Shown here: piece by piece, positions 6,417 through 60,392 of the stretch
Layout: each line of letters begins with the position of its first letter
How positions within the stretch are numbered: position 1 is the first letter of the stretch
Source of the DNA: Sporolactobacillus laevolacticus DSM 442
Lineage (GTDB): Bacteria > Bacillota > Bacilli > Bacillales > Sporolactobacillaceae
NCBI RefSeq assembly: GCF_000497245.1
Contig: NZ_AWTC01000010.1
Location: 1 to 64,000, forward strand
Reading direction: 5' to 3'
DNA: 64,000 bases
Made by a program: the position numbers and the translations under genes
Notes under the pieces: model-generated
The model's input: only the letters and a program-made list of their open reading frames with translations
Told to the model about the DNA's origin: nothing
The model's database searches: none

Positions 6417-6464
6417 ATTTATAAATTTTTTTCATGTTCATCATCACTGTACGGGATCACGTCA

Positions 6465-7631: not shown

Positions 7632-7655
7632 TATTATCTTTCCCCTTTTATGCAT

Positions 7656-7879: not shown

Positions 7880-7915
7880 AAAAAGCAGTCATTAGAATCT
7901 TTACTTTTTTGCAGA

Positions 7916-8197: not shown

Positions 8198-8221
8198 GAA
8201 TCATTCCTCCTTATCTTTGTC

Positions 8222-8410
8222 CTATTTACTTTTAAGCTGCTGAAGTTCTTCGCGTAGGAGATCATTCTGTTCCTTCAATGCGCTTAGTTCATTCGAAACT
8301 TTTTGGTGATCCGAGCGATCCTTTTGCGAATGCCCGCCTTTCATCATCAATAACATCATTGGAAGCATCATAAGCGGACAGGCGAGCAGCGCTAGCCAAC
8401 TTAAATCCAT
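8222..8410 (-). CDS. small membrane protein with CPLM motif and coiled-coil tail
   Basis: 62 aa from an ATG at 8410 preceded by GAGGAGG; longer in-frame starts lack a site. One transmembrane segment carries ACPLMMLPMMLLMMK, then a charged heptad tail (ELSALKEQNDLLREELQQL) likely to form a coiled coil in the cytoplasm. The DUF2933-like CPxM segment is shared with both neighbours, so the three look like divergent paralogues in a metal-response operon. Precise role unknown. Confidence 0.6.
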   Translation of the reverse strand: MDLSWLALLACPLMMLPMMLLMMKGGHSQKDRSDHQKVSNELSALKEQNDLLREELQQLKSK

Positions 8411-8523
8411 AGGTTTGTTCCTCCTCTCTTCCTTTACTAAGGATTGTAGACAAGAATTGTGTGGAATCTGTGTGGAAACCATGTAGATTAAAATTAGTTA
8501 TGAAAATCATAAAAGCTTGAAGC

Positions 8524-8727
8524 TCATTTACTTTTTTTTCCGAGATAAAACCACAAATAAAGAATAGCAAGAAGCATCACCGGGCAGGCCATCCACATGC
8601 ATACTTGAAAAAATGCCCTTCCAAAAGAGAGAAAACTCTCATGCCCAAAAGCATTAGCAGAGAAGAACAGGCAGGTTAGTCCCATGATTATCAAAAATAG
8701 TGAAAAAATCCAGTCCAATTTTTTCAT
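8524..8727 (-). CDS. small two-TM membrane protein with CPVM motif
   Basis: 67 aa with two hydrophobic segments (DWIFSLFLIIMGLTCLFFSA and CMWMACPVMLLAILYLWFYL). Its ATG overlaps the stop of the histidine-kinase gene (ATGA), so it is translationally coupled to the two-component system. The CxxxxCPVM cluster resembles the CPxM motifs in the two genes downstream. I infer an accessory of copper sensing or handling. Confidence 0.55.
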   Translation of the reverse strand: MKKLDWIFSLFLIIMGLTCLFFSANAFGHESFLSFGRAFFQVCMWMACPVMLLAILYLWFYLGKKSK

Positions 8728-10139
8728 GAAATCATCCCGCCCTTCTCATGCTTTTCTTCAAAGGGAAATGTCAATGTAAAAGTAGTTCCAACGCCTGCTG
8801 TACTCTCAACATGAACCGTTCCGCCTTGTATTTCGACATACTTTTTAACGATGGACAAACCTAAGCCGGTCCCGCCGTATTTGCGCGCCCGCGATTTTTC
8901 AACACGATAAAACCGTTCAAAAATGAAAGGAAGTTCCTCATTGGGAATGCCAATTCCGGTGTCCGCCACAATGACAACCCCAGCATTATTTTGTTTCTTC
9001 AATTGAACAAGAATCGTCCCGTTCTCTGTAAATCGAATCGCATTTTCCAGTAAATTGAGCAGCACCTGTTCCATGCGTTGACGGTCTCCATGAATACATG
9101 GGACGTGTTCATGGACATCTACTTGAAGACTCAAATGCTTGTTTTCCGCCTTCAGTTTCACTTTCTGAAGTGCCGCTTTCATGGGTCCTTTCAGATCCAG
9201 TGATTCCATAGTGAGCTTTATCTGCCCCTCCTCCATCTTTGAAAGGTCGAACAGATCGTTAATTAGACGTTCGAGACGTACGGATTCTTGATAAATGATC
9301 GATAAGTACTGTTCTTTTTCTTTGTCGGATTGAACCATTCCGTCTGCCAAAACTTTAGTATAGCCCTGAAGGTAAGTCACCGGCGTTCGCAGTTCATGTG
9401 AAATATTTGAGAAAAAAGCTTGTCTCGTATCTCGATAGCGTTGAAGGCTGGCCGCCAGATCATTTATGGAACGTCCAAGCATACCGATCTCATCACGGCC
9501 CCCGATCTTAAGCCGCGCGTCCCAGTCTCCTTTTGCCATTTTCCCAGTCATATGCTGCATTTGAAGTAGCGGACGGGACAGCAACTTGCTCATGATCAAG
9601 ATCATGCCTAAAGCGAGCAGAAAAGCGCCTAATCCAGACAGGATCAGCAAGCCACGCAAACGATACAAAGAGTTATCTATTTGTTTCATTGAAGAAGCAA
9701 TGTAAATCGCGGACCGAGTGCTTTTGTCACGCTTTACCGGTTTTCCGACGACATAATACCGATTATGCTGACCGTCTTGAAATCGGAATTCAATGGCATG
9801 ACCGGAAAGCAACCGCCGATTTTCTGACTTTCTTACAAATGAAGGACTTGGCTGCTCTTTCTTGCCTTCAAGGGTCAGAACTCTTCCATCAGCATATAAC
9901 CAATAGACCTTTACATTTGAAAACTCGGCAAAAGTTCGGATCATCGATTGGGATGAATCCTCCCCGGATGCAGCCATAGTGGTAAAATGAGCAGCGATTT
10001 CGTGAGTATCTTCTTTCATTTGCGCATCATAAAAGGTTGTGAATAAACGGTCGACAGCTAGCCCAAGCGAAAGCAGGATTACGATGATCAGCACCATGAT
10101 GGCGACACCCAGTTTCAGCCCGATTCGATTCATTGTCAT
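8724..10139 (-). CDS. sensor histidine kinase
   Basis: 471 aa membrane sensor kinase. TM1 about 9-31, an extracytoplasmic sensor of about 130 residues, TM2 about 163-185, HAMP (SRPLLQMQHMTGKMAKGDWD), HisKA with the phospho-acceptor in SNISHELRTPVTYLQGY, and HATPase with N-box (LLENAIRFT), G1 (DTGIGIP), F-box (FERFYRV) and G2 (GGTGLGL). It overlaps the response-regulator stop by ATGA and is coupled to a CPxM membrane protein. Divergent placement next to a multicopper oxidase suggests copper or envelope-oxidation sensing, although the sensor domain itself has no obvious metal cluster. Confidence 0.9.
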   Translation of the reverse strand: MTMNRIGLKLGVAIMVLIIVILLSLGLAVDRLFTTFYDAQMKEDTHEIAAHFTTMAASGEDSSQSMIRTFAEFSNVKVYWLYADGRVLTLEGKKEQPSPSFVRKSENRRLLSGHAIEFRFQDGQHNRYYVVGKPVKRDKSTRSAIYIASSMKQIDNSLYRLRGLLILSGLGAFLLALGMILIMSKLLSRPLLQMQHMTGKMAKGDWDARLKIGGRDEIGMLGRSINDLAASLQRYRDTRQAFFSNISHELRTPVTYLQGYTKVLADGMVQSDKEKEQYLSIIYQESVRLERLINDLFDLSKMEEGQIKLTMESLDLKGPMKAALQKVKLKAENKHLSLQVDVHEHVPCIHGDRQRMEQVLLNLLENAIRFTENGTILVQLKKQNNAGVVIVADTGIGIPNEELPFIFERFYRVEKSRARKYGGTGLGLSIVKKYVEIQGGTVHVESTAGVGTTFTLTFPFEEKHEKGGMIS

Positions 10140-10840
10140 GACTTTCCATCCTCAGAATTGAATTTATAGCCAATCCCCCATGCCGTCTGAATTGGTGAAT
10201 AGTGCAACCCAGCCTTTTTCAGCTTTTCTCTGATATTTTTCACATGTATGTCGACCACTCGTGCGTCGCCCTCAAAGTCAAAGCCCCATATCTTTTCAAT
10301 CAGTTGCTCTCTAGATAGAACACGTCCGTTATTCATTGCGAGCGTGTCAAACAGATCGAACTCCTTTTGGGTAAGTTCAAGTGGCCGATCCTGAATCATG
10401 ACCTGCCTGCCGTCTCTGTCGATAATCAGTTCCGGAAAAATCAGTTTATTTTTATCCAACTGGCCGGCTGTAACTGTAGATCGACGGATTAGTGCATGAA
10501 CACGGGCAACCAGTTCGGCAGGATCAAATGGTTTGGTTAAGTAATCGTCCGCGCCAAGTTCAAGTCCCTGGACTTTTTCTTTTGTCTCACCTAAAGCAGT
10601 CAACATCAGAATTGGGACCGATTTCACTTCTCGTATCGATCGGCAGACCTGCCATCCATCCATTTCAGGCATCATCACGTCAAGAATGATCAAATCGAAA
10701 GAGTAATTTTTAATCTTCAGCAACGCTTCATTGCCATCTGCTGCCTCAACTGTATCAAAGCCTTCTTTTGAGAAATAGATACGTAGCAAATTGCGCATTT
10801 TCCAGTCATCATCTACGATTAGAATTTGCAATTTTTTCAT
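10136..10840 (-). CDS. OmpR-family response regulator
   Basis: 234 aa. Receiver domain with the acidic pair (VDDD), phospho-acceptor Asp in 'LIILDVMMPEMDGW', Thr in 'LMLTALG' and Lys in 'DYLTKPFDP', then a winged-helix DNA-binding domain (ELTQKEFDLFDTLAMN ... DARVVDIHVKNIREKL). First gene of the unit; AAGGTGAT precedes the ATG at 10840. A direct repeat in the 220-bp gap to the divergent multicopper-oxidase gene is a likely binding site. Confidence 0.92.
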   Translation of the reverse strand: MKKLQILIVDDDWKMRNLLRIYFSKEGFDTVEAADGNEALLKIKNYSFDLIILDVMMPEMDGWQVCRSIREVKSVPILMLTALGETKEKVQGLELGADDYLTKPFDPAELVARVHALIRRSTVTAGQLDKNKLIFPELIIDRDGRQVMIQDRPLELTQKEFDLFDTLAMNNGRVLSREQLIEKIWGFDFEGDARVVDIHVKNIREKLKKAGLHYSPIQTAWGIGYKFNSEDGKS

Positions 10841-47967: not shown

Positions 47968-48120
47968 ATGAATGTTTGTCCGTATTTTGAAACGAAACGT
48001 ATTTCTTTTAAATTGTGCAGAACGTATCATGTTTGTGGATCTTTCATGAGAAAATTTTTACCAGCTATGTTCTTATTTTTATAATTTTCACTCAATGGAT
48101 AAAAGGTTACTTCCTGCTCA

Positions 48121-48726
48121 CTAAAATATATTTATAATTTTACAGAAAACAAGAATGAGTACCTCGATTAGGTTACAACAGAACAGTCTCAATGCTTGTG
48201 TCCAAGAACCGGTGAAACAAATGTATAAAACTATGGCAAATATAAAATCAAATAATAGCGCAAAATTTCCAGTATAAATAAAAGGTATACCTTCAGTGAT
48301 TATAAACAAAATTGGTATGGAAGAAATAAATGCAGGAAACCAACCTAGTCCCTTACCATACCAAGTAATTATTGCTGAAAAAAATCCTATTACAGTTAGG
48401 CAAATCCATATTTGAATATATGATATTGGTAAAAAATGATATAAAAAATATGTGTACGTATAATAAGCGAATAACATTGACAAGAAAAAGAAAAATACGT
48501 TTATACCTGCTAATATTGGACCTAAGCTATAGCATGCGATGAGAGCAGCCAGAAAAATCCATATTCCAAAATTTGTTCCCACCTCTCCAATAATAGGCGT
48601 ATTATCAAAGTATTTTGCAGCTGTTCCCATTAAAATTCCAAGAACAATGCATTTTAACAAACAGAGATATTTCTTGTTTCTATTGCTTGAGTTAGGTTTT
48701 CGAATATTGAAAAGCACATTTTTCAT
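48121..48726 (-). CDS. multi-pass membrane protein of unknown function
   Basis: 201 aa from ATG 48726 with GGGGAT eight bases upstream. Six hydrophobic helices after a basic N-terminus (RKPNSSNRNKKYL), e.g. 'WIFLAALIACYSLGPILAGINVFFFFLSMLFAYY'. No transporter motif recognised; DUF6518-like by general appearance only. AT-rich compared with the gene before it. Last gene of the ABC-GH4-hydrolase unit, 61 bases after the nucleoside hydrolase, so it could be a membrane partner or an unrelated passenger. Confidence 0.5.
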   Translation of the reverse strand: MKNVLFNIRKPNSSNRNKKYLCLLKCIVLGILMGTAAKYFDNTPIIGEVGTNFGIWIFLAALIACYSLGPILAGINVFFFFLSMLFAYYTYTYFLYHFLPISYIQIWICLTVIGFFSAIITWYGKGLGWFPAFISSIPILFIITEGIPFIYTGNFALLFDFIFAIVLYICFTGSWTQALRLFCCNLIEVLILVFCKIINIF

Positions 48727-48787
48727 TTGGAGATATCCCCCTTCCACACCAAGTTACTTCATGTTCTTCCCAATTGAATTCGGTGGA

Positions 48788-49732
48788 TCAGCGAGCTGAA
48801 GATTGATCAGCATCTCGAAATTTGTTTATTAGCCACTCCCAAAACACGTCGCAATCAATATCCACCGCAGCTTGAACATTGGGTTCTTCCCCCAGAACAT
48901 GATTAAAGTCAGCGACGGTCATTCCCCTCGTAATTGTACCTTCTGTTTCAATTTCAATATGATAGTTCTTAAAAGTGATCAAATTCGGAAGAAGTATGCT
49001 CGCCAAGGCAATTGCGTCATGGAGATTCGGCGGATCGAAGCAATATTGCTCGTTTCGGCGCAGCATAAAATCGAAAATTTGCGTTGCGATGCGCGCAAAC
49101 TTGTTCTCGCACGCTTTCACCTGTTCATATACGAAGAGCGGGAGCTGTGGCTTCAAGGTTACATCAAGTCCAATCATCACAAGAGGAATCCCTGACTCAA
49201 ACACGATTTTGCTTGCATCTGGATCGACATAACAATTGAATTCGGAGGTTTGCGTCATATTGCCGCCCCTGAGTGCCCCACCCATGATGGTTATTCTTTT
49301 GATCAGTTTTATTAAATCCGGATGCCGCAGGATAGCTTCGGCAAGATTGGTAAGTGGTCCGACTGCTAAAAGCTCAAGCTCTCCGTTCAGAGAACTTGCG
49401 TATTGATAAATCGTATCTACGGCATCTTTCGGATAAAATAGATTCTTTGATCTTGGGAGATGTACATCACCAAGGCCTGTTGATCCATGGCTGATCGCAG
49501 TATGTAATGCTTTTTTCAACGGTTTCCTCGCGCCTACCGCGACAGGAATATCAAAACCAAGCGCACGAACGAGATTAAGTGTGTTTCTGCTCGTGAGATC
49601 AACACCGACATTTCCAGCGACTGTTGTGAACGCCTTAATATTCAAGATATCCACGCTCATCAAAGCACAAATAATCGCAATCGCATCATCAGTCCCAGTG
49701 TCAACATCCATAATAAGCGGAATTTTTTTCAC
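48788..49732 (-). CDS. inosine-uridine-preferring nucleoside hydrolase family protein
   Basis: 314 aa. The Ca-binding motif 'PLIMDVDTGTDDAIAI' at the N-terminus, 'AVGPLTNLAEAI', 'IMGGALRGGNMT', 'EFNCYVDPDASKIVFESGIP' and a C-terminal 'LHDAIALASIL' are complete. Cleaves N-ribosidic bonds; specificity among purine, pyrimidine or other ribosides is not evident. GTG start overlapping the GH4 stop (GTGA), so it is translationally coupled to a glycosidase behind an importer, which suggests processing of an imported glycoside or riboside. Confidence 0.88.
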   Translation of the reverse strand: MKKIPLIMDVDTGTDDAIAIICALMSVDILNIKAFTTVAGNVGVDLTSRNTLNLVRALGFDIPVAVGARKPLKKALHTAISHGSTGLGDVHLPRSKNLFYPKDAVDTIYQYASSLNGELELLAVGPLTNLAEAILRHPDLIKLIKRITIMGGALRGGNMTQTSEFNCYVDPDASKIVFESGIPLVMIGLDVTLKPQLPLFVYEQVKACENKFARIATQIFDFMLRRNEQYCFDPPNLHDAIALASILLPNLITFKNYHIEIETEGTITRGMTVADFNHVLGEEPNVQAAVDIDCDVFWEWLINKFRDADQSSAR

Positions 49733-51084
49733 AGATACGCCCTGCCTCCTAAGCTTTCCAAATCAGATGTGCAGCTGCTCCACGCTTGATGCAGAACATC
49801 CCTATTTTCTTTGATTAAATCCAATAACAAGAGCTCAGGATAGTCGCAATTGGAAACAAGCGGATCAAGATACATGGCCTGAAGTGCTTTGGAATAATCA
49901 TTAGTCACCGCAGCCTCTACTGCAAGCAGGTATTCACGTCCTAAGGTGTCACACTTATAGGCGATGCCGTCCGGTAATCTTCCTATTTTTTGCGGATGCA
50001 GACCGAACCTGTCAATGAACGTCGGTAATTCAACAATGACTCCATCTGAAATATTCTCAATGTATCCTTTGTTAATCGTATTGACCATTTCCGTCGCGGT
50101 TTCACCGGTCACTAGTGATCTGATAAAATGTGTTGCCGTCTCGCCTGATCCCTCTAGAAATTTCTCGTAACCTGAATTCTTCAAGCGAACCTCATCAAAC
50201 AATTGACGCAAGTTGCTTCGCCAACCATCAACTACGGTGAAATCATTGTTCTTCCATTCATAATCTTGATCATTTAGCACTCTTTCTTTAAGGAAGAAGG
50301 GAAAAAATTCACCAACATGGCGGTCACCGGGAGCCGGATAGAGCCCGTAGGTGCGAAACAGTTGAGTAGAAATCGGCTCTTCTTTGTCCATTCCGGATTG
50401 AATCAGTTTTTCTAATAATTGCGGATAGACATTGGTGCCATCAATGGTAAGGTCAGTAAACCATGTCAGGTGATTGATGCCCGCCGCCCGATACTCCAGT
50501 TTTTCCGAATCAACGTGAAATACCTCTTTGGCGATCCAGCTTGCCGTGTCGGGAGTCCCATGGCAAAGCCCGAACGATTTGATCTTCGTATATTTTTGAA
50601 TGGCGAGACAAACGGCGCCTTCCGGATTTGAATAATTGATAATCCAGGCGTCTGGACATCTTTTCTCCATTTCAGCGGCAATATCTAGGACAACAGGAAT
50701 CGTACGCAGCGTGCGAATGATTCCTCCTGGACCAATGGTATCTCCGACAGATTGTAGCACACCATGTTTTGTGCAGACTTCAATATCCTTCTTCCATCGC
50801 TCATATCCGCCTGTCGCAAAGGTTAGAAAAACAAAATTCGCCCCGTCCAAAGCTTCTTTATAATCCTTTTGCAAAGATACTTCAAAATTTCCCTTTGCAA
50901 ATCGAACCAATTTAGTGACAGCATTTTTCGTCTCTTCCAGCAAGCTGTCATTCAAATCAACAAGCACGAGCTGTCCGCCCTCGATACTCTGTTCACCAAG
51001 AATGTCGCCAACAAGTCTCATTGTAAAGAAAGAACTTCCCGCGCCAATAAACACAAATTTTAGTTGATTCGTGCTATTAACCAT
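49729..51084 (-). CDS. glycoside hydrolase family 4 protein
   Basis: 451 aa from ATG 51084 with GAGGTGA upstream. N-terminal NAD-binding 'FVFIGAGSSFFTMRLV', 'WIINYSNPEGAV', the metal Cys in 'FGLCHGTPDT' and metal His in 'GINHLTWF' identify GH4. This family uses NAD+ and Mn2+ in an oxidation/elimination mechanism and can act on alpha-, beta- and even thio-glycosides. No PTS partner is nearby, so the substrate is probably not a sugar phosphate. Coupled to the nucleoside hydrolase and downstream of the ABC importer. Confidence 0.85.
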   Translation of the reverse strand: MVNSTNQLKFVFIGAGSSFFTMRLVGDILGEQSIEGGQLVLVDLNDSLLEETKNAVTKLVRFAKGNFEVSLQKDYKEALDGANFVFLTFATGGYERWKKDIEVCTKHGVLQSVGDTIGPGGIIRTLRTIPVVLDIAAEMEKRCPDAWIINYSNPEGAVCLAIQKYTKIKSFGLCHGTPDTASWIAKEVFHVDSEKLEYRAAGINHLTWFTDLTIDGTNVYPQLLEKLIQSGMDKEEPISTQLFRTYGLYPAPGDRHVGEFFPFFLKERVLNDQDYEWKNNDFTVVDGWRSNLRQLFDEVRLKNSGYEKFLEGSGETATHFIRSLVTGETATEMVNTINKGYIENISDGVIVELPTFIDRFGLHPQKIGRLPDGIAYKCDTLGREYLLAVEAAVTNDYSKALQAMYLDPLVSNCDYPELLLLDLIKENRDVLHQAWSSCTSDLESLGGRAYL

Positions 51085-51132
51085 TTCGCTCACCTCGGAA
51101 CATCAACCTAGTCTTTTTTATGTTCTAACATC

Positions 51133-51810
51133 TTAATTTCTAATGGCCGTTTTTAATTCACCACGTGATTTTTTGAGCGATCGTCGTTCAAAAATGAGCA
51201 GAATCCTGTTTGCCGCCCATGATAATAGGAACGCGAGTACAGTCCCCCATACAATTTTGACTGCATAATCCATGCGAAGGCCATCAAACAAAAGCGTACC
51301 TAGGCCGCCCGCACCTATAGAAGCGGCAATGGTGGTCATGCCAATTGTTGCGATCACAGCCAGGCGAAGCCCACCAAGTAGTGAAGGAAGCGCGAGAGGT
51401 AATTGCACTTTAACAAAAAGCTGCAACTTACTTAATCCCATTCCTCGGCCAGCCTCAAGAATTGAGGCATCCACCGATTTAAAACCGGCGAGCGTATTAC
51501 GAACCAAAATGAATTGCACATAGACAACAAGTACGGTCACTGCAGTAGGCATGCCTAATCCGCAAATGGGAATGAGAATTGCGAAAAAAGCAAGACTGGG
51601 AATCGCGTACAAAGCACCCAAAATAGCCAGCACAATCGATGAAAGGAGTTGCGATTGGTACAGAACAAGACTGAGCGGCACGGCAATGATGATTGAGATG
51701 GCCAAAACTGTGAGCACAATCTGAAGATGTTGGGCAACCATGATCAACAAATCATCATGATATTCCCCAAAATAGTTAAAAAAATCGGCAATTGAATTAG
51801 TCATGATCAT
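51133..51810 (-). CDS. ABC transporter permease (OpuC/quaternary-amine type)
   Basis: 225 aa with five to six helices and the EAA loop 'ILEAGRGMGLSKLQLFVKVQLPLALPSLLGGL'. Typical of OpuCB/OpuCD permeases. 'MTTIAASIGAGGLGTLLFDGL' is the conserved following segment. AGGAG upstream; start overlaps the ATPase end by 14 bases. One of two permeases flanking the ATPase and binding-protein genes. Confidence 0.92.
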   Translation of the reverse strand: MIMTNSIADFFNYFGEYHDDLLIMVAQHLQIVLTVLAISIIIAVPLSLVLYQSQLLSSIVLAILGALYAIPSLAFFAILIPICGLGMPTAVTVLVVYVQFILVRNTLAGFKSVDASILEAGRGMGLSKLQLFVKVQLPLALPSLLGGLRLAVIATIGMTTIAASIGAGGLGTLLFDGLRMDYAVKIVWGTVLAFLLSWAANRILLIFERRSLKKSRGELKTAIRN

Positions 51811-52819
51811 TCACTCTCCTGATGTTCTTCTTTTGAACATCAAGCCGAACAACATTATCTTGTATTTTTTTCAGTTGAATGAACTGATCCCAAGAAATTT
51901 CGCCAATCGGTTCCTCTTGATCATCGATGACAACAAGCCGCTTCTTTCCGGTTTCAAAGAATTTTGCCAGAACGTCATCGAGAAATTTATCATTATGGAT
52001 GACTCCATCTGCAAGTTTGGTAGGTTGAGTCAGTGGTTGAACAAAATTTTCGACTCTAAGCACTTTAAGTCGATTAATAATGTTCTCTGTTTCGATTAAT
52101 TGCTTGACAAAATCATTGGCAGGATGGAACAAAATATTATAAGGCGTGTCAAATTGCTGGACTTCGCCCTTATCCATAATGATGATCTTGTCGCCAAGTT
52201 TAAAAGCTTCATTTATATCATGAGTGACGAACAGAATGGTTTTATTAAGTTTTTTCTGGATATTAATCAACTCATCTTGGAGGTTCTGTCTGGTGATCGC
52301 ATCAATCGCCCCGAATGGCTCGTCCATGAGCATCAGCTGCGGATCAGCCGCCATCGCGCGAGCCAAACCGATTCTCTGCTGCTGACCGCCTGATAATTGC
52401 TTGGGATATCTCTTTTTATAGTGTTCATCCCCCAGACCGACAAGCTTAAGCAGTTCATCTACTCGGGCATTTATTTTCTCTTTATTCCAATGAAGAATCT
52501 TCGGAACAGTCGCGATATTTTGCTCGACAGTCATATGCGGAAACAGACCAATTTGCTGAATGACATAGCCGATCTTCCTGCGGTAATCTTCAACCTTCAA
52601 TTTTTTAATATTTTCACCATAAAAGAAAATGTCGCCTGAAGTACTTTCGTAGATCCGATTCACCATTTTTAACAGCGTTGTTTTCCCAGATCCAGATGTT
52701 CCTAATATGGTCACAAAGTCTCCTTCGTTAATGGTAAGGCTGACACCAGTAACAGAATTCGTTTCAGCATGCGCAAATTTCTTTGTAATATTTACTAGTT
52801 CAAGAGCTATATTGGTCAC
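51797..52819 (-). CDS. ABC transporter ATPase (OpuCA-like)
   Basis: 340 aa from GTG 52819 with AAGGAG eight bases upstream. Walker A 'GTSGSGKTTLLKMVNR', signature 'LSGGQQQRIGLARAMA', Walker B 'LMLMDEPFGAID', H-loop 'FVTHD'. C-terminal about 90 residues (KRLVVIDDQEEPIGEISWDQF) are a CBS-like regulatory tail found in betaine transporters. Powers the importer of this locus. Confidence 0.93.
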   Translation of the reverse strand: MTNIALELVNITKKFAHAETNSVTGVSLTINEGDFVTILGTSGSGKTTLLKMVNRIYESTSGDIFFYGENIKKLKVEDYRRKIGYVIQQIGLFPHMTVEQNIATVPKILHWNKEKINARVDELLKLVGLGDEHYKKRYPKQLSGGQQQRIGLARAMAADPQLMLMDEPFGAIDAITRQNLQDELINIQKKLNKTILFVTHDINEAFKLGDKIIIMDKGEVQQFDTPYNILFHPANDFVKQLIETENIINRLKVLRVENFVQPLTQPTKLADGVIHNDKFLDDVLAKFFETGKKRLVVIDDQEEPIGEISWDQFIQLKKIQDNVVRLDVQKKNIRRVNDHD

Positions 52820-52920
52820 GATTTGAACTCCTTTCATGAACTGATATCGGTCGGTAAAAAATACAGGAAAACCTCATGCCGATGGACAGAGGTTTCCGCT
52901 TAATAAGTTAATTTTGTTAA

Positions 52921-53859
52921 TTATTTTCCCGCTGCTTTGTTTACAGATTTCTTAATTGTTTTATAGAAATTATCAGCAACATCCTTATATTCCTTTTTAT
53001 CGATATCTACCGAGGCATTCAGCTTAATGATTGTTGGGTTGTCAAGTTTTGCTGATACTGCATTAAGGATCTTACCGATCTTTGGATTTTTTTTCAGGAC
53101 GCTGTCTTTAATTACCGGTGCTACGTAATAAGGAGGCCAAAAATTCTTATCATCCTTAAGCACGACAAATTGCGGATCAACGAGTGAGCCTTCTGTTGTA
53201 TAAGCGACTGCAAGGTCTGCCTGATTATTTTTCAGGACCTGATATTTGATTCCGTCATTATAAACCTTTTCGGATTTAAAATTAAACTTGCCATATTTCT
53301 TGTTCAGCCCGACGAGCCCATCTTCACGCTGATCAAACGATCCGTTGGATGCATACCTAATCTTGCTTGCGTTTGCCTGAAGCTGGGAAATGGTCTTGAT
53401 TCCGTACTTATCCGAGGCTTTCTTTGTAATAACGAGACCTTGCGAATCGTTGATATTCGCTTGTTTCAGCCAAGTCAGATGAAATTTTTTCTGGTATTCC
53501 GAGGAGACCTTGTCATAGACCTGCTTGGCATCAAACAGCGCCGGCTCCTTTAAGATGACGGTCAATCCGGTTCCGGTATATTCGGGATAAAAATCAATAT
53601 CGCCTTTAACAAGTGCGGCATGAGGACCTTGTCCGCCGATATTAAACTTTCTGTCTACTGAGTAACCATTATCTTCGAGGGCTTTTGCGTATATTTCAGC
53701 CAAAACAAGAGACTCTGTGAAATCTTTGGAACCAACCACGACTTTAGGTGACGAACCTTGACCTTGCTTGGAGCAGCCTGACGCCACTGCGAGTGAAGCG
53801 AATACGACAACGATTAGCAATGAAAAACTCAACAATGATTTAAAGATATTCTTTGACAT
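52921..53859 (-). CDS. substrate-binding lipoprotein (OpuCC/OsmF/EgtU-like)
   Basis: 312 aa. Lipobox 'VASGCSKQG' (Cys29), then a type-II periplasmic-binding fold: 'KVVVGSKDFTESLVLAEIYAKALE', 'GDIDFYPEYTGTGLTVIL', 'QADLAVAYTTEG'. This family binds quaternary ammonium compounds (betaine, carnitine, choline) and in the EgtU branch ergothioneine. The aromatic cage cannot be assigned without a structure, so the ligand is inferred from neighbours. Confidence 0.9.
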   Translation of the reverse strand: MSKNIFKSLLSFSLLIVVVFASLAVASGCSKQGQGSSPKVVVGSKDFTESLVLAEIYAKALEDNGYSVDRKFNIGGQGPHAALVKGDIDFYPEYTGTGLTVILKEPALFDAKQVYDKVSSEYQKKFHLTWLKQANINDSQGLVITKKASDKYGIKTISQLQANASKIRYASNGSFDQREDGLVGLNKKYGKFNFKSEKVYNDGIKYQVLKNNQADLAVAYTTEGSLVDPQFVVLKDDKNFWPPYYVAPVIKDSVLKKNPKIGKILNAVSAKLDNPTIIKLNASVDIDKKEYKDVADNFYKTIKKSVNKAAGK

Positions 53860-53890
53860 AATTACTCTCCCTTTTTTTCACTATGTTTTG

Positions 53891-54523
53891 TCATATAAAT
53901 TTCGTTAATCTCTTTTGAGTGATTGATAAGATCACATCTGTAATTATCGAAAGAATGGCGACGGACAGCCCTCCGACAAGTAAAATCGCGGTGCTGGGCA
54001 AACTCAGTCCGATAATGATTAAATCGCCAAGGCCACCGGAACCAATATAAGCAGCCAATGTTGCGCTTGCAATCACTTCAACCGCAGCTGTCCGGATCCC
54101 TGTGATGATCATTGGAAACGCAAGTGGAAATTCAATGGTAAATAAAATTCTCTGCTTACTCATTCCCATTCCTTTCGCAGCCTCGATCACGGAAGGATTG
54201 ATCCCTGTAAAACCGATACACGTATTGATAAGAATAGCCGGAAACGCAAGAAAAGTTAAAGCGATCACTGCTGGAACAAGACCGGTACCAAGAACAGGCA
54301 TTAATACGATCAGAACAGCAAGACTTGGAATAAGACGCAGCAAGTTAAAAAGACCAAGAATGGATTCAGATAGTTTCACATACTTTGCACAAACCACACC
54401 AAAAGGAATAGCGATCACAATACCGATCAGCATAACGATCAGGCTGATCCCAATATGCGTCAACAACGCATTCAGATACACGTTGAAGTTCTTTGACAAA
54501 TAATCAAGCATAAGATGTATCAA
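53891..54523 (-). CDS. ABC transporter permease (OpuC/quaternary-amine type)
   Basis: 210 aa, five to six helices, EAA loop 'VIEAAKGMGMSKQRILFTIEFPLAFPMIITGI', followed by 'TLAAYIGSGGLGDLIIIGL'. TTG start behind GGGGGTGA. First gene of the importer unit; pairs with the permease at 51.1 kb to form the heterodimeric channel. Confidence 0.92.
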   Translation of the reverse strand: MIHLMLDYLSKNFNVYLNALLTHIGISLIVMLIGIVIAIPFGVVCAKYVKLSESILGLFNLLRLIPSLAVLIVLMPVLGTGLVPAVIALTFLAFPAILINTCIGFTGINPSVIEAAKGMGMSKQRILFTIEFPLAFPMIITGIRTAAVEVIASATLAAYIGSGGLGDLIIIGLSLPSTAILLVGGLSVAILSIITDVILSITQKRLTKFI

Positions 54524-54563
54524 TGAAAATCACCCCCTTTTGTACTAAATTTTTTGACGATCG

Positions 54564-54644
54564 CTATTCTCTGAGTAAGATGAAACATCGTCTGAATCCC
54601 CAAAAATTAAATTCATAAGTTCGCAAACAGGTCCAGAAGTTCAT
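54564..54644 (-). CDS. 26-aa mini-ORF upstream of the importer
   Basis: ATG at 54644 has an excellent GGAGGAG seven bases upstream and opens MNFWTCLRTYEFNFWGFRRC, stopping 40 bases before the permease start. Rich in aromatic residues and Arg. Possibly a leader peptide coupling translation, or a chance ORF; no homology recognised. Confidence 0.3.
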   Translation of the reverse strand: MNFWTCLRTYEFNFWGFRRCFILLRE

Positions 54645-54766
54645 TTTATGTATCTCCTCCTTCAAAAATTAAGTGTATTTCTAGATGCTCGCTTTAATTT
54701 TTGTAAATTAAAAATCTCTTATCCTTTAACTCATTCATGATTAGAATAATGAAGCCTGGGCTGTCC

Positions 54767-55513
54767 TTAACTTAATGTTGTAGAAAAGGATAGACTTGAA
54801 GAAATCCTCTTTGCCGTCTTGATGACATGCGGAACTATTGCTGATAACTTTTCATCCTTTATCCGATCTCCCGGTCCGGCAACGGTAACACTCGCAATGA
54901 CATGGTTCGCCTGATCGAATATAGGCGCGGCGATACCGATAATTCCCGGATCGACCTCACTAGACGTTTCGCTGAACCCTTTTTCGCGAATCACCTGTAA
55001 CTCCTCTAGAAAATCATCGACTAAGTCCGTTTCAATGGTATGAATAACCTGGTTAATAATTTTACTCGTCTCAAACGCCAGAATCGCTTTCCCGGATGCT
55101 CCGTTTTGAATGGGGAACGTCTTACCGTCCTCTACCACAAATCGAACGAGATGTTGACCCGCGACACTTTTTACACAGATCACATTTGTTCCTGTCCGTA
55201 CAAACAAAACAACTGTTTCTTTTGTTTCTTCACTAAGCTGTTCCATTAATGGCGCGGCACTAGATTTCAATCGATTTCTGAATTGACTGTTCAAACTCTT
55301 TGCCAATTCAAGAATCCTTAAACCGAGCCCAATTTGTCCCTGCCCTTTTCTTTCGACAAGGCCATTTCTTTCTAATGTCTGAATCAATCGATAAACACTG
55401 CTTTCCGGAATTGATATTCTTTGAGCGATTTCTGCGATCGTTTGCGTTTCGCCATCATCTCCAAGCGCAAATAGAATGTCCAATGCTCGCTCTAGAGATT
55501 GCGTGCCTTTCAT
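54767..55513 (-). CDS. IclR family transcriptional regulator
   Basis: 248 aa. N-terminal winged helix 'SLERALDILFALGDDGETQTIAEIAQRISIPESSVYRLIQTLERNGLV' and C-terminal IclR effector domain ('GIIGIAAPIFDQANHVIASVTVAGPGDRI'). Located between the lyase/hydratase/DUF917 unit and the importer unit, same strand. IclR members usually sense pathway intermediates of aromatic or small-acid catabolism; here it is the likely regulator of the whole 48-60 kb locus. Confidence 0.9.
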   Translation of the reverse strand: MKGTQSLERALDILFALGDDGETQTIAEIAQRISIPESSVYRLIQTLERNGLVERKGQGQIGLGLRILELAKSLNSQFRNRLKSSAAPLMEQLSEETKETVVLFVRTGTNVICVKSVAGQHLVRFVVEDGKTFPIQNGASGKAILAFETSKIINQVIHTIETDLVDDFLEELQVIREKGFSETSSEVDPGIIGIAAPIFDQANHVIASVTVAGPGDRIKDEKLSAIVPHVIKTAKRISSSLSFSTTLS

Positions 55514-55650
55514 TGATACTCCTCATTTCATAAATGTACTTAGCATACTTTTCATTATGCTGAATTCATTAATTGGATTCATAGACAACGCACTTAGTTG
55601 TTGAATCATGTACATTGCCTGGCGAAAAATTGATATGTTTCCTCGCCCCC

Positions 55651-55691
55651 GAACATTAGTTCTATACATATTGATTATAGAACTAATGTTC
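55651..55691. promoter_or_regulatory. 16-bp perfect inverted repeat between DUF917 and IclR genes
   Basis: GAACATTAGTTCTATA and its exact complement, separated by 9 nt. No T-run follows on either strand, so an operator (IclR autoregulation) or mRNA-stabilising hairpin is more likely than a rho-independent terminator. It lies 138 bp upstream of the IclR start. Confidence 0.5.
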
Positions 55692-55757
55692 CTTATTTAG
55701 CAAATACCAACATAGCATTCTTCTAAATAACCTACTAATGAATATTGCTGATCATCT

Positions 55758-56876
55758 TTAGCTAGGATTTGCTGTTTGCTTTGCCTTACCAAATGCGACA
55801 TCGTACAACTGGATGCCTAATGCTTCTTCCACTTCCGGATAAACTGTTGGGTCTTTTACACTTGAGCTGAGTGGAACATTCGACTTATCAATCTTGAAGA
55901 CAGCGACATCTGCGCCCTCCTCAATTTCGTTTGTACTTAACGGTTTGCCCGTTTGTGTAGAAAAAGCTGCGATCACATCCGGAAAAGTAGACAAACGCTC
56001 CCCATGTCCATTCTCGATCGCCATAAATTCATTCATGACGTGAAGAATCAGTTTTTCGTTCTCTGCTGCGACTTCGATAGTGCCGATATCAAAGGCTTCA
56101 TCCGTATATTTGACGTTTTTTCTATTGACTTTTCCCCTACCAATAAATTCGCCTTTTGTTTGTCTTGCAATAGCCTTAAATACTGCTTCCGGCCCTTCAG
56201 GTTCGGCATTAATAATCGCATTCCCCAGTTCAATTGCTAAAGTGATGCCCCCAATAGCGGCATTCTTCTTAATATAACCAGCAGTCAGCGGATGGCGTGC
56301 TGCTGCGATAAATCCACCGGAGAGATCAGAAGCAATTCTCAATATTTTTGACGTTTTTGCGGATGTACCTTCAACAACTAATTCCATATAGTTGCCCTTT
56401 TCCGGTTTCCCGCCGGCTACTGCTTGAATGGTGTGATAGTTGATGTCATTTGCAACTCCAAGCGCACCCATTTTTCCTGTAGGATGTGCGCGGATATCTC
56501 CAGTCGCATCCACAACGACCAAACCAAGCGCCGCTGAAGGCAGCCATCCATTTGTCGAACTCGACTTTCCGTTCTGCGGTGTCATCACGCCGACAATTTT
56601 TCCATCATATTTTTCGATGACGAGCTGAACCGCCTTAATGTAATCCTTCCCAAGCATTTGCCAGTCTGTTGTTCCAGCAGGTGCGCCGATTGCTGTACAT
56701 GTTAGAATAATTGCATCATCGGGCAGCTCATCAACCGAAACAAGCTTCACTCGATCTAATGTTAGCGCGGCATTGCCCATTTCAATGCCATGTTCATAAA
56801 ATCCTCCTCCGCCGCTCGCAAATACAGCGCCTCCTTTGCATGCTGCAAGGACATCTCTTCTTGTTAATTCACGCAT
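55758..56876 (-). CDS. DUF917 / S-methyl-thiohydantoin desulfurase family protein
   Basis: 372 aa. 'AACKGGAVFASGGGGFYEHGIEMG' at the N-terminus and 'NGHGERLSTFPDVIAAFSTQTGKPLSTNEIEEGADVAVF' at the C-terminus are the two DUF917 (S-Me-THD N and C) domains. From what is known of the family, members remove methanethiol from S-methyl-thiohydantoins formed from S-methyl-thiourocanate; older annotations call them hydantoinase-like. The start overlaps the hydratase-like gene stop by 8 bases, fixing the order lyase - hydratase - DUF917 as consecutive steps. Confidence 0.75.
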   Translation of the reverse strand: MRELTRRDVLAACKGGAVFASGGGGFYEHGIEMGNAALTLDRVKLVSVDELPDDAIILTCTAIGAPAGTTDWQMLGKDYIKAVQLVIEKYDGKIVGVMTPQNGKSSSTNGWLPSAALGLVVVDATGDIRAHPTGKMGALGVANDINYHTIQAVAGGKPEKGNYMELVVEGTSAKTSKILRIASDLSGGFIAAARHPLTAGYIKKNAAIGGITLAIELGNAIINAEPEGPEAVFKAIARQTKGEFIGRGKVNRKNVKYTDEAFDIGTIEVAAENEKLILHVMNEFMAIENGHGERLSTFPDVIAAFSTQTGKPLSTNEIEEGADVAVFKIDKSNVPLSSSVKDPTVYPEVEEALGIQLYDVAFGKAKQTANPS

Positions 56877-58536
56877 GTTTCTCTACCCCCTGATAATTAT
56901 TGGTTTCAATACGATGAATCCCTTTCTGATGAACCTCGTCCAATGCTTCCTCGTAGCCTGCATCTGCATAACGAAGTACACCGAGCGTCGTGTCATTGTC
57001 CAAAGTACATTTAAGCCTTTTACCGGCTGCTTCGGTTCCATCGGCTACCAGCGTGACTCCGGCGCTTTGCATGTAACCCGTGTATCCACCGCCGCCAGAA
57101 TGAATGGCGACTAAATCAGCCATTGATGAGCAATTCGTCATTGCATTTAATAACGGCCAGTCTGTCACGGCGTCGCTGCCATCTTTCATGCGTTCCGTCA
57201 TAATATTAGGATGGGTCATCGCGCCAGCATCCAAATGGTCACGAGTGAAAGCAATCGGTCCCTTTAATAAACCATCCGCGACCATCTGATTCACAGCCAA
57301 TGCCAAACGTGTTCGTTCCCCATGACCGAGCCAGCCGATTCTTGCCGGCAGGCCTTGAAACGGGACGTACTTATGAGCAAGCCGAATCCAATTGACCACA
57401 ATTTCATTTTCCGCAAACTCTTTCAAAATATATTTGTCAATCAGATTAATGTCTTCTGCTTCTCCCGATAATGCAATCCAGCGAAAAGGTCCGATCGCTC
57501 GTGAAAACAATGGCCGCAGGAAAGCTTCAGTAAAAATATCAATGTCAAAGGCATCATTAACACCATATTTGAAAGCCTGGGTACGAATGTTGTTTCCATT
57601 GTCAAAGACAATGGAACCTTTTCTTTTAAATTGAAGCATCGCGCTCACTTCAGCAGCGATTGATTGCCCTGCATCATTTGCCAATCGTTCCGGATCGCTT
57701 TGACGCACTGTCTCAACATCAGTCAACCGGTAACCCGCCGGTATATAGCCATAGATAAGGTCATGCGCTGCAGTCTGATCAGAGACAATGTCCGGAATAA
57801 TGTCCCGTTTCAAGATTTCAGGATAAATTTCAGCCGCATTTCCAATCAGGCCAACGGACACACTTTGTTTGTTCTCAGTTGCTTCCTGTATCCAACGCAA
57901 AGCCACATCAAGTTCTGCTGTTTTTCTTTGCAGATAACCGCTTTTTATTCTCTTATCGATGTGCTCCTCGTTCACATCGACACAAAGAATCGCTGCTCCA
58001 GCCATCACTCCTGCTAACGGTTGGGAGCTTCCCATCCCACCTAAACCAGCTGTTAAAATAAAGCGACCACTTAAATCAGAATGAAAATACTTACGAGCAA
58101 TCGTCTGGAAAATCTCATAGGTTCCTTGAATGACGCCCTGGGATCCAATATACTGCCAGTCGCCTGCAGTCAGCCCTCCCCAGCAGATCAATCCTTTTTT
58201 TTGTAATTCATAAAAATGATCACTTTTTGCCCACTGCCCGACAAGATTGCCATTCGCCATGATCACAAGCGGTGCGTTCGTATGGGTTTTAATTATTCCA
58301 ATCGGCTTTCCAGACTGTATGATCAACGTTTCATCTTCTTCTAAATCTTTAAGCGTTGCGACAATCGCGTGATAGGACGGCCAGTTTCGCGCTGCCTTTC
58401 CAAGCGCGCCGTAAACCACCAAATTCTCCTGATCTTCCGCATTTTCCAAAACATTTTCCAGCAAACGGAGCAGTGCTTCTTGCCGCCAGCTTTTGCAGCG
58501 AAGGTCAGCTCCTCTTTGCGCCTTAATCTGTTCCAT
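56869..58536 (-). CDS. urocanase-family hydratase, probably (S-methyl)thiourocanate hydratase
   Basis: 555 aa from ATG 58536 with AAGGAG upstream; 29-35 earlier in-frame residues are not conserved. Full-length urocanase fold: NAD motif 'TAGLGGMGSSQPLAG', 'IGSQGVIQGTYEIFQTIA', 'FDNGNNIRTQAFKYG'. But the urocanase signature FQGLPxRICW reads FQGLPARIGW here (residues 393-402): the active-site Cys is Gly. The usual MYGQMTAGSW is CWGGLTAGDW. These changes sit in the imidazole pocket and argue for a substrate other than urocanate. No hutI or hutG nearby. S-methyl-thiourocanate is the best candidate given DUF917 downstream. Confidence 0.7.
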   Translation of the reverse strand: MEQIKAQRGADLRCKSWRQEALLRLLENVLENAEDQENLVVYGALGKAARNWPSYHAIVATLKDLEEDETLIIQSGKPIGIIKTHTNAPLVIMANGNLVGQWAKSDHFYELQKKGLICWGGLTAGDWQYIGSQGVIQGTYEIFQTIARKYFHSDLSGRFILTAGLGGMGSSQPLAGVMAGAAILCVDVNEEHIDKRIKSGYLQRKTAELDVALRWIQEATENKQSVSVGLIGNAAEIYPEILKRDIIPDIVSDQTAAHDLIYGYIPAGYRLTDVETVRQSDPERLANDAGQSIAAEVSAMLQFKRKGSIVFDNGNNIRTQAFKYGVNDAFDIDIFTEAFLRPLFSRAIGPFRWIALSGEAEDINLIDKYILKEFAENEIVVNWIRLAHKYVPFQGLPARIGWLGHGERTRLALAVNQMVADGLLKGPIAFTRDHLDAGAMTHPNIMTERMKDGSDAVTDWPLLNAMTNCSSMADLVAIHSGGGGYTGYMQSAGVTLVADGTEAAGKRLKCTLDNDTTLGVLRYADAGYEEALDEVHQKGIHRIETNNYQGVEKHA

Positions 58537-58564
58537 CTTTAAGATCTCCTTCATAAAAATGTGA

Positions 58565-60160
58565 TTACTCTTTTTGCCTGATTGCTTTTTCAGCGTTTCT
58601 GAGGATCTCTTTGCTTTTAACGATCCGAAACGCTTTTTCAATATCTAGAGACAAATCTCTGTCTTTATCGAGAAAACCGATCGACCGCCTGATTGTTTCG
58701 TAGACTTCTCTTGTTCCAATACCGAGATGAATATGTTCGCGAAGATCTATAGCCTGCGCTGCATGGATCGCCTCGATTCCAAGAATGTAATATAGGTTAT
58801 CAATAATTAAGCGCGCTTTTTCGAGAGCGTAGACAGAATTTGTCGCGTGATCCTCAATATCGCCTTCAAGTGGAAAGAAGTCCATAGAGACTGGCTGGCA
58901 AAGATGCCTGATCTCCGCATCAAGTGCCGCGAATGTTTTCTGTATGGTCGCAAACCCGATAATCGATGAATCTCTTGGAACAAGGAAACGTGTCAATCCA
59001 GTAAAATCGGGAGAACTGAGTTTTATAATTCGGTAACAAGCAATCTTCGATAAATGAGCCAGTACAATACTCAACATTTCAATTCCAGAAACTAACGTGG
59101 TGATCTCATAATTAGCACTTGATACAATCTTTTTTTCATCGAGAAGTATGGAAGGGTTATCTTCAGACGCGTTCATACAAATGGTCAAATTCTCTCTTAC
59201 ATAATCCAACGCATCCCTAACCGATCCATGCACGCTGAAAGCTCCCCTGAAACTCAGTGGATCCTGAAGATGCTTTCTTGCATGACCATCCCATAAATAG
59301 CTGTTTCTGAGACAATCACGAACGAACGCTGCACTTCTTTTCTGGCCAGAAAGTTTCTTCGCATCAACTACTTTTTCAAATAATGGCGACACATTTCCGT
59401 CTAATCCTTCTAAGGACAAAGCGTAAATCAGATCAGCTGAATCCACCAACTGGTCAAGTTCATGAACAAGGAGAGCCGCCTTTCCTAACGCAAATGCATT
59501 AGAACTGACAATAGCCAGCCCATCTTTAGGTCCTAAAGTAGCCGGTTGCAGCCCCGCTTGTTCCAGCGCATCTTTCGCAGGCATACGGTGCCGTTTATAA
59601 TAAGCCATTCCTTCGCCAATCATCGTCATGCCAATTGAAGAGAGCTGTCCGAGATCCGCCGCTCCAACAGATCCTCTTTCAAGCATGACAGGACGAATTC
59701 CTCTATTTAGAAATTCCTTATATAAAAAAACAATATGAACCTGGATCCCTGTATACCCTTGCAGCAGCGAATTCAATCGTATTAACATGGTCGCGCGAAC
59801 CTGCTCTTCGGAAGCTTCTGTGCCAATAGCAATGCTGTGAGACAAGATCAGATTGTGATTAAATTTTTCATAATGATTGGCGTGTACGACTCTGTCTTTG
59901 TTAAGGCCGACACCGCGATTAAAGCCATATGTGGGAAAATTGGCATCTGCCTGGTCGTTCACAAATTTTCTAGCAGCCTGAATCCTCTGGAGCGCTTCAT
60001 CTGCGATCTCGACTTTTGTCATCTTTCGCGCAACAGCAATTACTTGCTCTATGGACAGATCATTTCCGTTCAATACAATTTTGGTTTCCTTTGTGGGTTC
60101 CTTTCTTTTCTTACCAATGTCATTTGACTGAACGTAATATTGCGCATCCTGACTCATCAT
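58565..60160 (-). CDS. ammonia-lyase-fold protein lacking MIO triad, probable (S-methyl)ergothionase
   Basis: 531 aa of the histidine/phenylalanine ammonia-lyase superfamily. Conserved: catalytic Tyr in 'TYGFNRGVG' (Tyr78), 'ASEDNPSILL', 'QDPLSFRGAF', and 'EGDIEDHATNS' (Glu436). The loop that makes the MIO cofactor, normally GSVGASGDLAPL, reads GSVGAADLGQL (163-173): Ser is Ala and Gly is deleted, so no MIO can form. Ergothionase, which eliminates trimethylamine from a betaine, is the known branch not needing MIO. With the Cys-less urocanase homologue and DUF917 this gives a three-step betaine pathway. GGAGG six bases before the ATG; first gene. Confidence 0.7.
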   Translation of the reverse strand: MMSQDAQYYVQSNDIGKKRKEPTKETKIVLNGNDLSIEQVIAVARKMTKVEIADEALQRIQAARKFVNDQADANFPTYGFNRGVGLNKDRVVHANHYEKFNHNLILSHSIAIGTEASEEQVRATMLIRLNSLLQGYTGIQVHIVFLYKEFLNRGIRPVMLERGSVGAADLGQLSSIGMTMIGEGMAYYKRHRMPAKDALEQAGLQPATLGPKDGLAIVSSNAFALGKAALLVHELDQLVDSADLIYALSLEGLDGNVSPLFEKVVDAKKLSGQKRSAAFVRDCLRNSYLWDGHARKHLQDPLSFRGAFSVHGSVRDALDYVRENLTICMNASEDNPSILLDEKKIVSSANYEITTLVSGIEMLSIVLAHLSKIACYRIIKLSSPDFTGLTRFLVPRDSSIIGFATIQKTFAALDAEIRHLCQPVSMDFFPLEGDIEDHATNSVYALEKARLIIDNLYYILGIEAIHAAQAIDLREHIHLGIGTREVYETIRRSIGFLDKDRDLSLDIEKAFRIVKSKEILRNAEKAIRQKE

Positions 60161-60240
60161 AAGATTCCTCCTTTCAGGGTTATAGCATTAAATTGATATT
60201 ATTCTTATATAATTACTTGGTTATTAGCTTAAAAAAATAT

Positions 60241-60259
60241 CACTATATGATAAATAGTG
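60241..60259. promoter_or_regulatory. inverted repeat in the lyase leader, candidate operator
   Basis: CACTAT (60241-60246) and ATAGTG (60254-60259) around a 7-nt AT-rich centre, about 40 bases downstream of the -10. Suitable for an IclR-type roadblock. Confidence 0.4.
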
Positions 60260-60299
60260 GTTACTTTTCCATTTGCTTTTGATAATTTGTTTAAAAGCA

Positions 60300-60327
60300 A
60301 TTATAGCCTGATTTAACTATTTGTCAA
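60300..60327 (-). promoter_or_regulatory. promoter of the lyase-hydratase-DUF917 operon
   Basis: Minus-strand TTGACA (complement of 60322-60327), 16 bp, TATAAT (complement of 60300-60305): both hexamers are perfect consensus. Long 130-base leader to the first gene. Confidence 0.7.
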
Positions 60328-60349
60328 TATAGTTTTTTTCAAAAAAAAT

Positions 60350-60380
60350 AGCGAAGAGAATGGGATGCATTCTCTTCGCT
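60350..60380 (-). terminator. rnr terminator
   Basis: 13-bp perfect stem AGCGAAGAGAATG with 5-nt loop, followed on the minus strand by eight T. 13 bases beyond the rnr stop. Confidence 0.9.
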
Positions 60381-60392
60381 GCAACTCTTTAA

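Follow-up and report, generated by a model that had tools for sequence, protein, structure and literature searches.

A urocanase homologue of Sporolactobacillus laevolacticus DSM 442 without the signature cysteine is very probably a thiourocanate hydratase

Introduction

We analyzed a 64,000-nucleotide stretch of the Sporolactobacillus laevolacticus DSM 442 genome (contig NZ_AWTC01000010.1, positions 1 to 64,000; hereafter the window), in which a minus-strand gene (56869..58536; 555 aa from the ATG) encodes a urocanase homologue lacking the signature cysteine. The protein is very probably a thiourocanate hydratase (etlB-like or ertB-like), a homologue of urocanase dependent on oxidized nicotinamide adenine dinucleotide (NAD+) and the second enzyme in the bacterial degradation of ergothioneine, a mushroom antioxidant. 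A 2-thio substrate is favored because the protein passes the equivalog model for this function, falls in the corresponding clade, is encoded beside a lyase predicted to lack the 4-methylideneimidazole-5-one (MIO) cofactor and beside a thiohydantoin desulfurase, and because this gene set recurs elsewhere. The kind of enzyme is a known one, and the hydratase is a further, expected member of it.

Results and Discussion

Family Assignment of the Hydratase

The open reading frame (ORF) matches all three urocanase Pfam domains almost over their full length. The Rossmann domain, which is the NAD+ site of urocanases, is intact (PF01175 positions 1–209 of 209), and NAD+ is the predicted cofactor. A sequence-only reading of this DNA had reported two altered motifs in an otherwise conserved protein and had argued against decay. 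Both motifs are read as reported in the minus-strand ORF 58536-56869, and decay of a urocanase gene can be ruled out, since the domains are complete. The first motif, FQGLPARIGW (57331..57360, minus strand), places Gly401 at the position of the HutU cysteine. The second, CWGGLTAGDW (58156..58185, minus strand; residues 118–127), has Gly121 where HutU has glutamine, as well as a private Asp126. Both positions presumably line the substrate/NAD pocket, as in HutU structures.

The NCBIfam scan distinguishes between the candidate substrates. The thiourocanate hydratase equivalog NF058530 is matched with 1017 bits, above its cut-off of 930, whereas the S-methyl-thiourocanate hydratase model NF058531 yields 782.5 bits, below its cut-off of 880. 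NF058530 found a match in 229 of 398 genomes of the class, where no more than three candidates were scored in each genome; over all searches for the hydratase and for the nucleoside hydrolase in this class and in the 394-genome G240 family discussed below, the limit was three to five. Ten of these genomes, including that of the window, lie above 930 (964–1038 bits). The next score is 737 bits, and the thiourocanate hydratases are therefore a cleanly separated class.

Among structures, the best PDB chain is 7ned (917 bits; 71.4% identity over 546 aa), followed by urocanases at 615 bits or less. Over 546 aa, the 7ned sequence matches a protein of Paenibacillus sp. Root444D2 (locus L007) with 100% identity; the cluster of this twin carries all five pathway genes, which supports regarding 7ned as a thiourocanate hydratase. 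The window hydratase is 79.3% identical to the protein of a congener, 52.4% to 1x87, and 51.7% to both 7jfz and 8q9u. We take 8q9u and 8q9v to be S-methyl-thiourocanate hydratase.

Diagnostic Columns and Phylogeny

The alignment and tree comprise 80 rows (78 different): 42 thiourocanate-hydratase rows, 29 HutU-type rows, 8 long (~680 aa) urocanases, and 8q9u. The duplicates are one protein present twice among the HutU rows and, among the 42, 7ned repeating L007 and L114 repeating L004. HutU rows from genomes were chosen by the letters RIC. As no row was left over after this choice, the uniform cysteine in the HutU rows is not due to dropped rows.

In the column of Gly401, cysteine is found in 29 of 29 HutU rows, glycine (29) or alanine (13) in the 42 thiourocanate-hydratase rows, leucine in all 8 long urocanases, and glycine in 8q9u. 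In the best 80 of 179 related loci, 30 of which were drawn on for the tree, the position is occupied by Gly in 18, Ala in 62, and Cys in none. Loss of the cysteine is a trait of the clade; it is neither a chance event nor unique to this protein. Glycine as a specificity switch on its own is ruled out by the 62 relatives with alanine and by the glycine of the S-methyl representative 8q9u, which also means that glycine alone cannot tell a thio from a methylthio substrate. Column 121 divides the two groups fully: all 42 thiourocanate-hydratase rows have Gly there and all 29 HutU rows Gln; 8q9u has Gly here too, in addition to FQGLPARIGW. Apart from the cysteine column, 36 columns (121, 122, and 126 included) separate HutU from the thiourocanate hydratases at a level of at least 90%. 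At 32 of them the window hydratase carries the letter most common among the thiourocanate hydratases, and at two it has a third letter (Asp at 126, Thr at 431).

The tree was built by a quick method with no bootstrap, and 8q9u and a paralogue from G007 form long branches in it. All 42 thiourocanate-hydratase rows fall on one branch, amounting to one change, with a support of 99 in the Shimodaira–Hasegawa-like approximate likelihood-ratio test (SH-aLRT); the pair formed by the window protein and its congener has 100. The only S-methyl row, 8q9u, branches just outside this clade with a support of 84. The phylogenetic check proposed in the sequence-only reading, namely whether the protein groups with S-methyl-thiourocanate hydratases or with true HutU, gave neither placement: the protein lies outside the HutU rows and apart from the S-methyl row. 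The long-branched G007 protein (L111, contig C46, 6254-7978) is a second urocanase paralogue, 44% identical to the window hydratase, with Cys at the signature column.

Lyase and Desulfurase Partners

The hydratase gene sits between genes for a lyase and a desulfurase. The lyase (58565..60160, minus strand; 531 aa) is an ergothionase-like homologue of aromatic lyases. Its best PDB match is the ergothionase 6s7j/6s7q, presumably from Treponema denticola, with 474 bits against 227 for the best histidine ammonia-lyase (HAL), and with 47% identity against 31%. The loop that reads GSVG-(Ala-Ser-Gly)-D in HAL is GSVGAAD in the window lyase. Since the Ala-Ser-Gly triad is missing, the MIO cofactor should not form. 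The absence of MIO from ergothionase is noted in PMC13405746. Among 36 aligned lyases, none has Ala-Ser-Gly in the MIO loop. The string ASGD occurs once in 76 lyase relatives, near residue 400 of the L019 protein and far from the loop. Two further lyase subtypes in such clusters, at L002 (16155-17738) and L024 (4246-5835), are likewise without Ala-Ser-Gly and share only 32% and 26% identity, respectively, with the window lyase.

The desulfurase gene (55758..56876, minus strand; 372 aa) shares 8 bases with the hydratase gene. Its product belongs to the S-Me-THD/DUF917 family (Pfam S-Me-THD_N and _C) and matches NF058529 (thiohydantoin desulfurase) with 612.9 bits, above the cut-off of 440. It reaches 308.9 bits with NF058532 (S-methyl-thiohydantoin desulfurase), below the cut-off of 450.

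The same arrangement recurs. In 27 further Bacillota loci, which were chosen because the hydratase is present, the lyase gene is found in 25, the desulfurase gene in 27, and an IclR gene in 24. Thresholds for neighbor labels were set by the analyst throughout and, for these 27 loci, the 61 loci of other bacteria, and all but two of the G240-family loci described below, after the scores had been seen. Within the 3.59 Mb genome (99.8% complete), the only urocanase and the only aromatic lyase are those of the operon. No MIO-containing HAL was found in the genome; the sole match to PF00221 is the window lyase.

Beyond the desulfurase gene, an IclR-family regulator (54767..55513; Pfam IclR_C and HTH_IclR) is followed by four transporter genes, all on the minus strand. 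They encode a first QAT/OpuC-type ATP-binding cassette (ABC) permease (53891..54523; BPD_transp_1), an OpuAC-type betaine-binding protein (52921..53859; OpuAC) whose PDB homologues bind choline, betaine, or ergothioneine, an ABC ATPase of the betaine family (51797..52837; ABC_tran; closest NCBIfam model proV at 316.6 bits, just below the cut-off of 326.6), and a second QAT/OpuC-type permease (51133..51810; BPD_transp_1). Ahead of the lyase gene by 140 bases, a promoter-like TTGACA-16-TATAAT element (60300..60327, minus strand) agrees with the consensus at 12 of 12 positions. This is a consensus match only, and the region holds 32 such sites against 29.6 in shuffled sequences, which is no excess.

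From these homologies we propose the following route. The betaine-type ABC transporter would import ergothioneine, and the MIO-less lyase, by homology to the characterized ergothionase, would convert it to thiourocanate and trimethylamine. The hydratase, judging from its family, would add water to thiourocanate to give 2-thioxo-imidazolone propionate, a thiohydantoin. The S-Me-THD-type desulfurase, again from family membership, would then exchange sulfur for oxygen, which would liberate sulfide and give hydantoin-5-propionate. Generic hydantoinases and carbamoylases encoded elsewhere in the genome may open the ring and remove the carbamoyl group to yield glutamate, or the hydantoin could be the end product. 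A five-step ergothioneine pathway including thiourocanate hydratase was reportedly described by Beliaeva, Leisinger, and Seebeck in 2021 (ACS Chem Biol 16:397).

Points Against the Assignment and Alternative Substrates

Several observations weigh against a thiourocanate hydratase acting in ergothioneine degradation. The hydratase also scores above the cut-off of the hutU model TIGR01228 (708.7 bits against 375). The congener's thiourocanate hydratase likewise lies above this cut-off, and on these scores the hutU model does not separate the urocanate and thiourocanate hydratase functions. Such a protein would therefore often be named urocanate hydratase, and the present assignment likely corrects a misannotation. 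The depositors of 7ned named it urocanate hydratase; we take it to be the thiourocanate hydratase from Paenibacillus that Beliaeva et al. reportedly described in 2021. At two of the 36 diagnostic columns (33 and 43) the window hydratase has the HutU letter. Its Asp126 is unusual for the family, being shared among the 42 rows only with congener G016, while the other 40 have Ala. No NCBIfam ergothionase model came up for the lyase; it is named from its lack of the triad and its resemblance to PDB chains. Genes for the final two pathway enzymes are missing from the window cluster, and in the whole genome no ErtD above cut-off was found (best 328 of 650 bits, NF058539), so that an own-genome ErtD orthologue was rejected. 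Finally, motif comparison indicates that the transporter's binding protein lacks two specificity residues of EgtU (SKDF versus K-I-G, and EYTGT versus Phe293 of EgtU), which makes its ligand uncertain. Identification of the transporter as EgtU was rejected on these differences, by motif comparison rather than by direct alignment to EgtU.

Some of these points could reflect a shifted substrate in the window and G016 proteins, for example another 2-substituted or conjugated imidazole. The Asp126 confined to this pair, the absence of enzymes for the last two steps, and two genes of the insert that carries the operon, one for a nucleoside hydrolase and one for a glycoside hydrolase family 4 (GH4) protein, would all fit, as would the finding that close nucleoside hydrolases adjoin such operons in 7 of the 7 genomes having them (among 394 of one family). 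However, G016, with the same Asp126, has a full five-enzyme cluster with neither a nucleoside hydrolase nor a GH4 gene in its 20-kb stretch, and the NF058530 score is well above the cut-off. We consider such a shift improbable.

An S-methyl-thiourocanate hydratase, in an operon degrading S-methyl-ergothioneine, would explain FQGLPARIGW and Gly121 equally well, as both are found in 8q9u. Yet both S-methyl models, NF058531 for the hydratase and NF058532 for the desulfurase, score too low, and 8q9u, the one S-methyl row, lies outside the clade and is no closer to the window protein than HutU 1x87 is. This makes the S-methyl substrate very improbable. Of the bulkier substrates that had been suggested from the sequence alone, the 2-thio imidazole is thus retained on the strength of NF058530, the clade, the neighbors, and the recurrence of the gene set, and the 2-methylthio imidazole is not. 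An ordinary urocanate hydratase of the histidine pathway that merely tolerates the Cys-to-Gly change is scarcely credible: the hutU score and the two HutU letters favor it, but the protein falls outside the HutU rows, agrees with the thiourocanate hydratases at most diagnostic columns, and is partnered by a thiohydantoin desulfurase in a genome whose only lyase lacks the MIO triad.

The Last Two Pathway Steps

The genome encodes several relatives of the missing enzymes. With NF058538, also scored for ErtD (hydantoin-5-propionate amidohydrolase), only one own paralogue is listed, at 296.5 of 600 bits. Of the four own ErtD paralogues, two pass D-hydantoinase models and two allantoinase models. 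One D-hydantoinase above cut-off (577 bits) is encoded on contig C13 of G000 (140309-141664), near an ORF that looks racemase-like from its sequence start, read by eye; it may substitute for the absent hydantoinase. No ErtE (N-carbamoyl-glutamate amidohydrolase) was found among the ORFs of the insert. Own carbamoylase paralogues elsewhere reach 349–408 of 520 bits with the ErtE model, and the congener's clustered gene is also under this cut-off (336.5); three own carbamoylases pass allantoate-type models.

Many Bacillota clusters resemble the window in this respect. Both last genes are present in 16 of the 27 further Bacillota loci, and 11 are without the pair nearby. In 61 loci of other bacteria, chiefly Rhizobiales, the first of the two genes is found in 57 and the second in 58. 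In the G240 family, the hydratase was found in 36 of 394 genomes with an E-value of 1e-250 or better, in 39 copies, and both last genes occur in 22 of the 39 clusters (22/37 plus 0/2), counted in stretches of up to about 8–11 kb on each side, some ending at contig edges, so that farther genes would be missed. L232 is not part of the 22/37 count; the urocanase there is a HutU.

A gene for a luciferase-like monooxygenase was found in G240-family clusters without the last pair (8/15 plus 2/2) and in 3 of the 22 with it. L006, L013, L015, L018, L019, L150, and L151 have a luciferase-like flavin monooxygenase between transporter and hydratase and none of the last two genes. The L006 enzyme is of the NtaA/DmoA type, and DUF427 proteins often stand alongside in clusters of this type.

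Nucleoside Hydrolase and GH4 Genes

At the far end of the insert, the genes for a GH4 protein (49729..51093, minus strand; Glyco_hydro_4/4C) and a nucleoside-hydrolase-like protein of the IUNH family (48788..49732, minus strand; IU_nuc_hydro) overlap by 4 bases. The DTGTDD-, SEFN-, and HD-type motifs of the latter, which presumably take part in riboside cleavage, are intact. In the 398-genome class sample the window's nucleoside hydrolase is the only close copy at an E-value of 1e-60, and one other is 39% identical.

The gene recurs beside such operons. Of the 394 G240-family genomes, for which the E-value limits of the nucleoside-hydrolase and hydratase searches were set by the analyst, 18 have a nucleoside-hydrolase match, 7 of them at 57–74% identity. 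Six of these seven also have a thiourocanate hydratase, and in all six the nucleoside-hydrolase gene lies inside that cluster: in four it precedes the hydratase ORF by 2–21 bases, in G622 it is one gene off, and in G442 it comes directly behind the lyase gene. In the seventh (G701, locus L232) it stands beside the gene for a HutH-like lyase without Ala-Ser-Gly (GSVG-Y-L). All seven close nucleoside hydrolases therefore adjoin a lyase/urocanase operon, and all seven lyases lack the triad. As for the 11 distant copies (38–40%), a hydratase is present as well only in G734, on the same contig but far away.

The G701 operon (3777-10597) consists of genes for the HutH-like lyase (hutH, 591 of 539 bits), HutU (986 bits), HutI (500 bits), a HutG-like protein (208.9 bits, below the cut-off of 229), and the nucleoside hydrolase. 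From its sequence the operon is a candidate for a pathway with a lyase for hercynine (histidine betaine); alternatively, the HutH is broken. Hercynine, trimethylamine, and urocanate together gave no match in the literature searched.

A close GH4 relative occurs in only one of the seven genomes, G622, where it is 77.5% identical and the GH4–nucleoside-hydrolase order is the same. Six G240-family clusters share the window's transporter type (binding protein 495–517 bits); none of them has the last two genes, and five have the nucleoside hydrolase. The 33 of 39 clusters without the gene argue against a necessary role of this enzyme, as does G573, where a transporter of this type is present but the gene is not.

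One explanation, which we regard as unlikely, is that these operons naturally take in an imidazole betaine that has been ribosylated or glycosylated, from which the nucleoside hydrolase (together with closely related GH4 enzymes in two cases, the window and G622) would strip the sugar before the lyase, hydratase, and desulfurase act. If so, the same nucleoside-hydrolase subfamily in G701 would point to a more general strategy for the use of trimethyl-histidines conjugated to sugars. The tight link of this subfamily to such operons is a fresh lead. In the literature searched, ergothioneine and nucleoside hydrolase come together only in one paper, on Mycobacterium taxonomy, and the phrase "glycosylated ergothioneine" is absent among the matches listed.

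Insert and Genome Context

In each of the four congeners compared, out of 14 (G010, G012, G016, and G019), rnr is directly followed by a phosphotransferase system (PTS) gene. Homology to the congeners resumes near window position 47,981 and at 60,393 or slightly beyond, and about 12.4 kb (approximately 47982..60392, between rnr and the PTS gene) thus appear to have been inserted. The insert also contains a 208-aa ORF (48121..48747, minus strand) without a Pfam or NCBIfam match. A terminator-like element with a 13-bp stem and T tail (60350..60380, minus strand) lies after rnr. Terminator-like elements show no excess in the region (12 against 10.7 in shuffled sequences). Repeats at the insert comprise a single direct pair, located within it, and three inverted pairs, of which one lies near the insert ends (48360-48386 / 60195-60221; 27 nt, 78% complementary); that pair is weak and imperfect and was not counted as evidence. 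The guanine-plus-cytosine content is 41.7% in the insert against 43.6%, which is little different.

In a search of 26 genomes of the bacterial family, 15 gave a match. A thiourocanate hydratase is found only in the window genome (100%) and in G016 (79%), and the remaining matches are HutU-like proteins, long urocanases, or fragments of one. G016 has a full cluster with a hydantoinase above the ErtD cut-off (785 of 650 bits) and a carbamoylase, located on a different contig from its rnr-smpB region. The window thus adds an ergothioneine-degradation operon, carried in an insert, to a genus in which such operons are rare (2 of 15 genomes).

Comparison with Known Systems

A search for thiourocanate hydratase joined with ergothioneine gave no match in the literature searched, thiourocanate itself occurs in one paper, S-methyl thiourocanate is absent among the matches listed, and a search of PMC9516567 by catabolism terms found nothing on this pathway. 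The binding protein belongs to the same betaine-binding superfamily as the ergothioneine transporter EgtU (PMC9732360). In contrast to EgtU, it is encoded by a separate gene, and by motif the equivalents of Gly244 and Phe293 appear to be Phe and Tyr.

The window lyase resembles the ergothionase 6s7j/6s7q in its 47% identity and in an MIO loop that is one residue short and has no Ala-Ser-Gly, but its loop letters are AAD instead of EGD. An ergothionase study was reportedly published by Maurer in 2019.

Canonical HutU (1x87, 7jfz) has the same domain architecture as the window hydratase and about 52% identity to it. The hydratase differs by the absent cysteine and at the 36 split columns, and its genome is without an MIO-type lyase. 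With S-methyl-thiourocanate hydratase (NF058531; 8q9u) it shares the urocanase family, Gly for Cys, and Gly121, whereas its score is below that model's cut-off, its identity is 51.7%, and 8q9u lies outside the clade. The closest counterpart is 7ned and the five-step ergothioneine pathway, with full-length homology, 71.4% identity, agreement at most diagnostic columns, Gly for Cys, and lyase and desulfurase neighbors. The window hydratase reads TAGDW where 7ned has TAAAW, and its cluster, compared with the twin cluster of Root444D2, is without the hydantoinase and carbamoylase genes and has another type of transporter.

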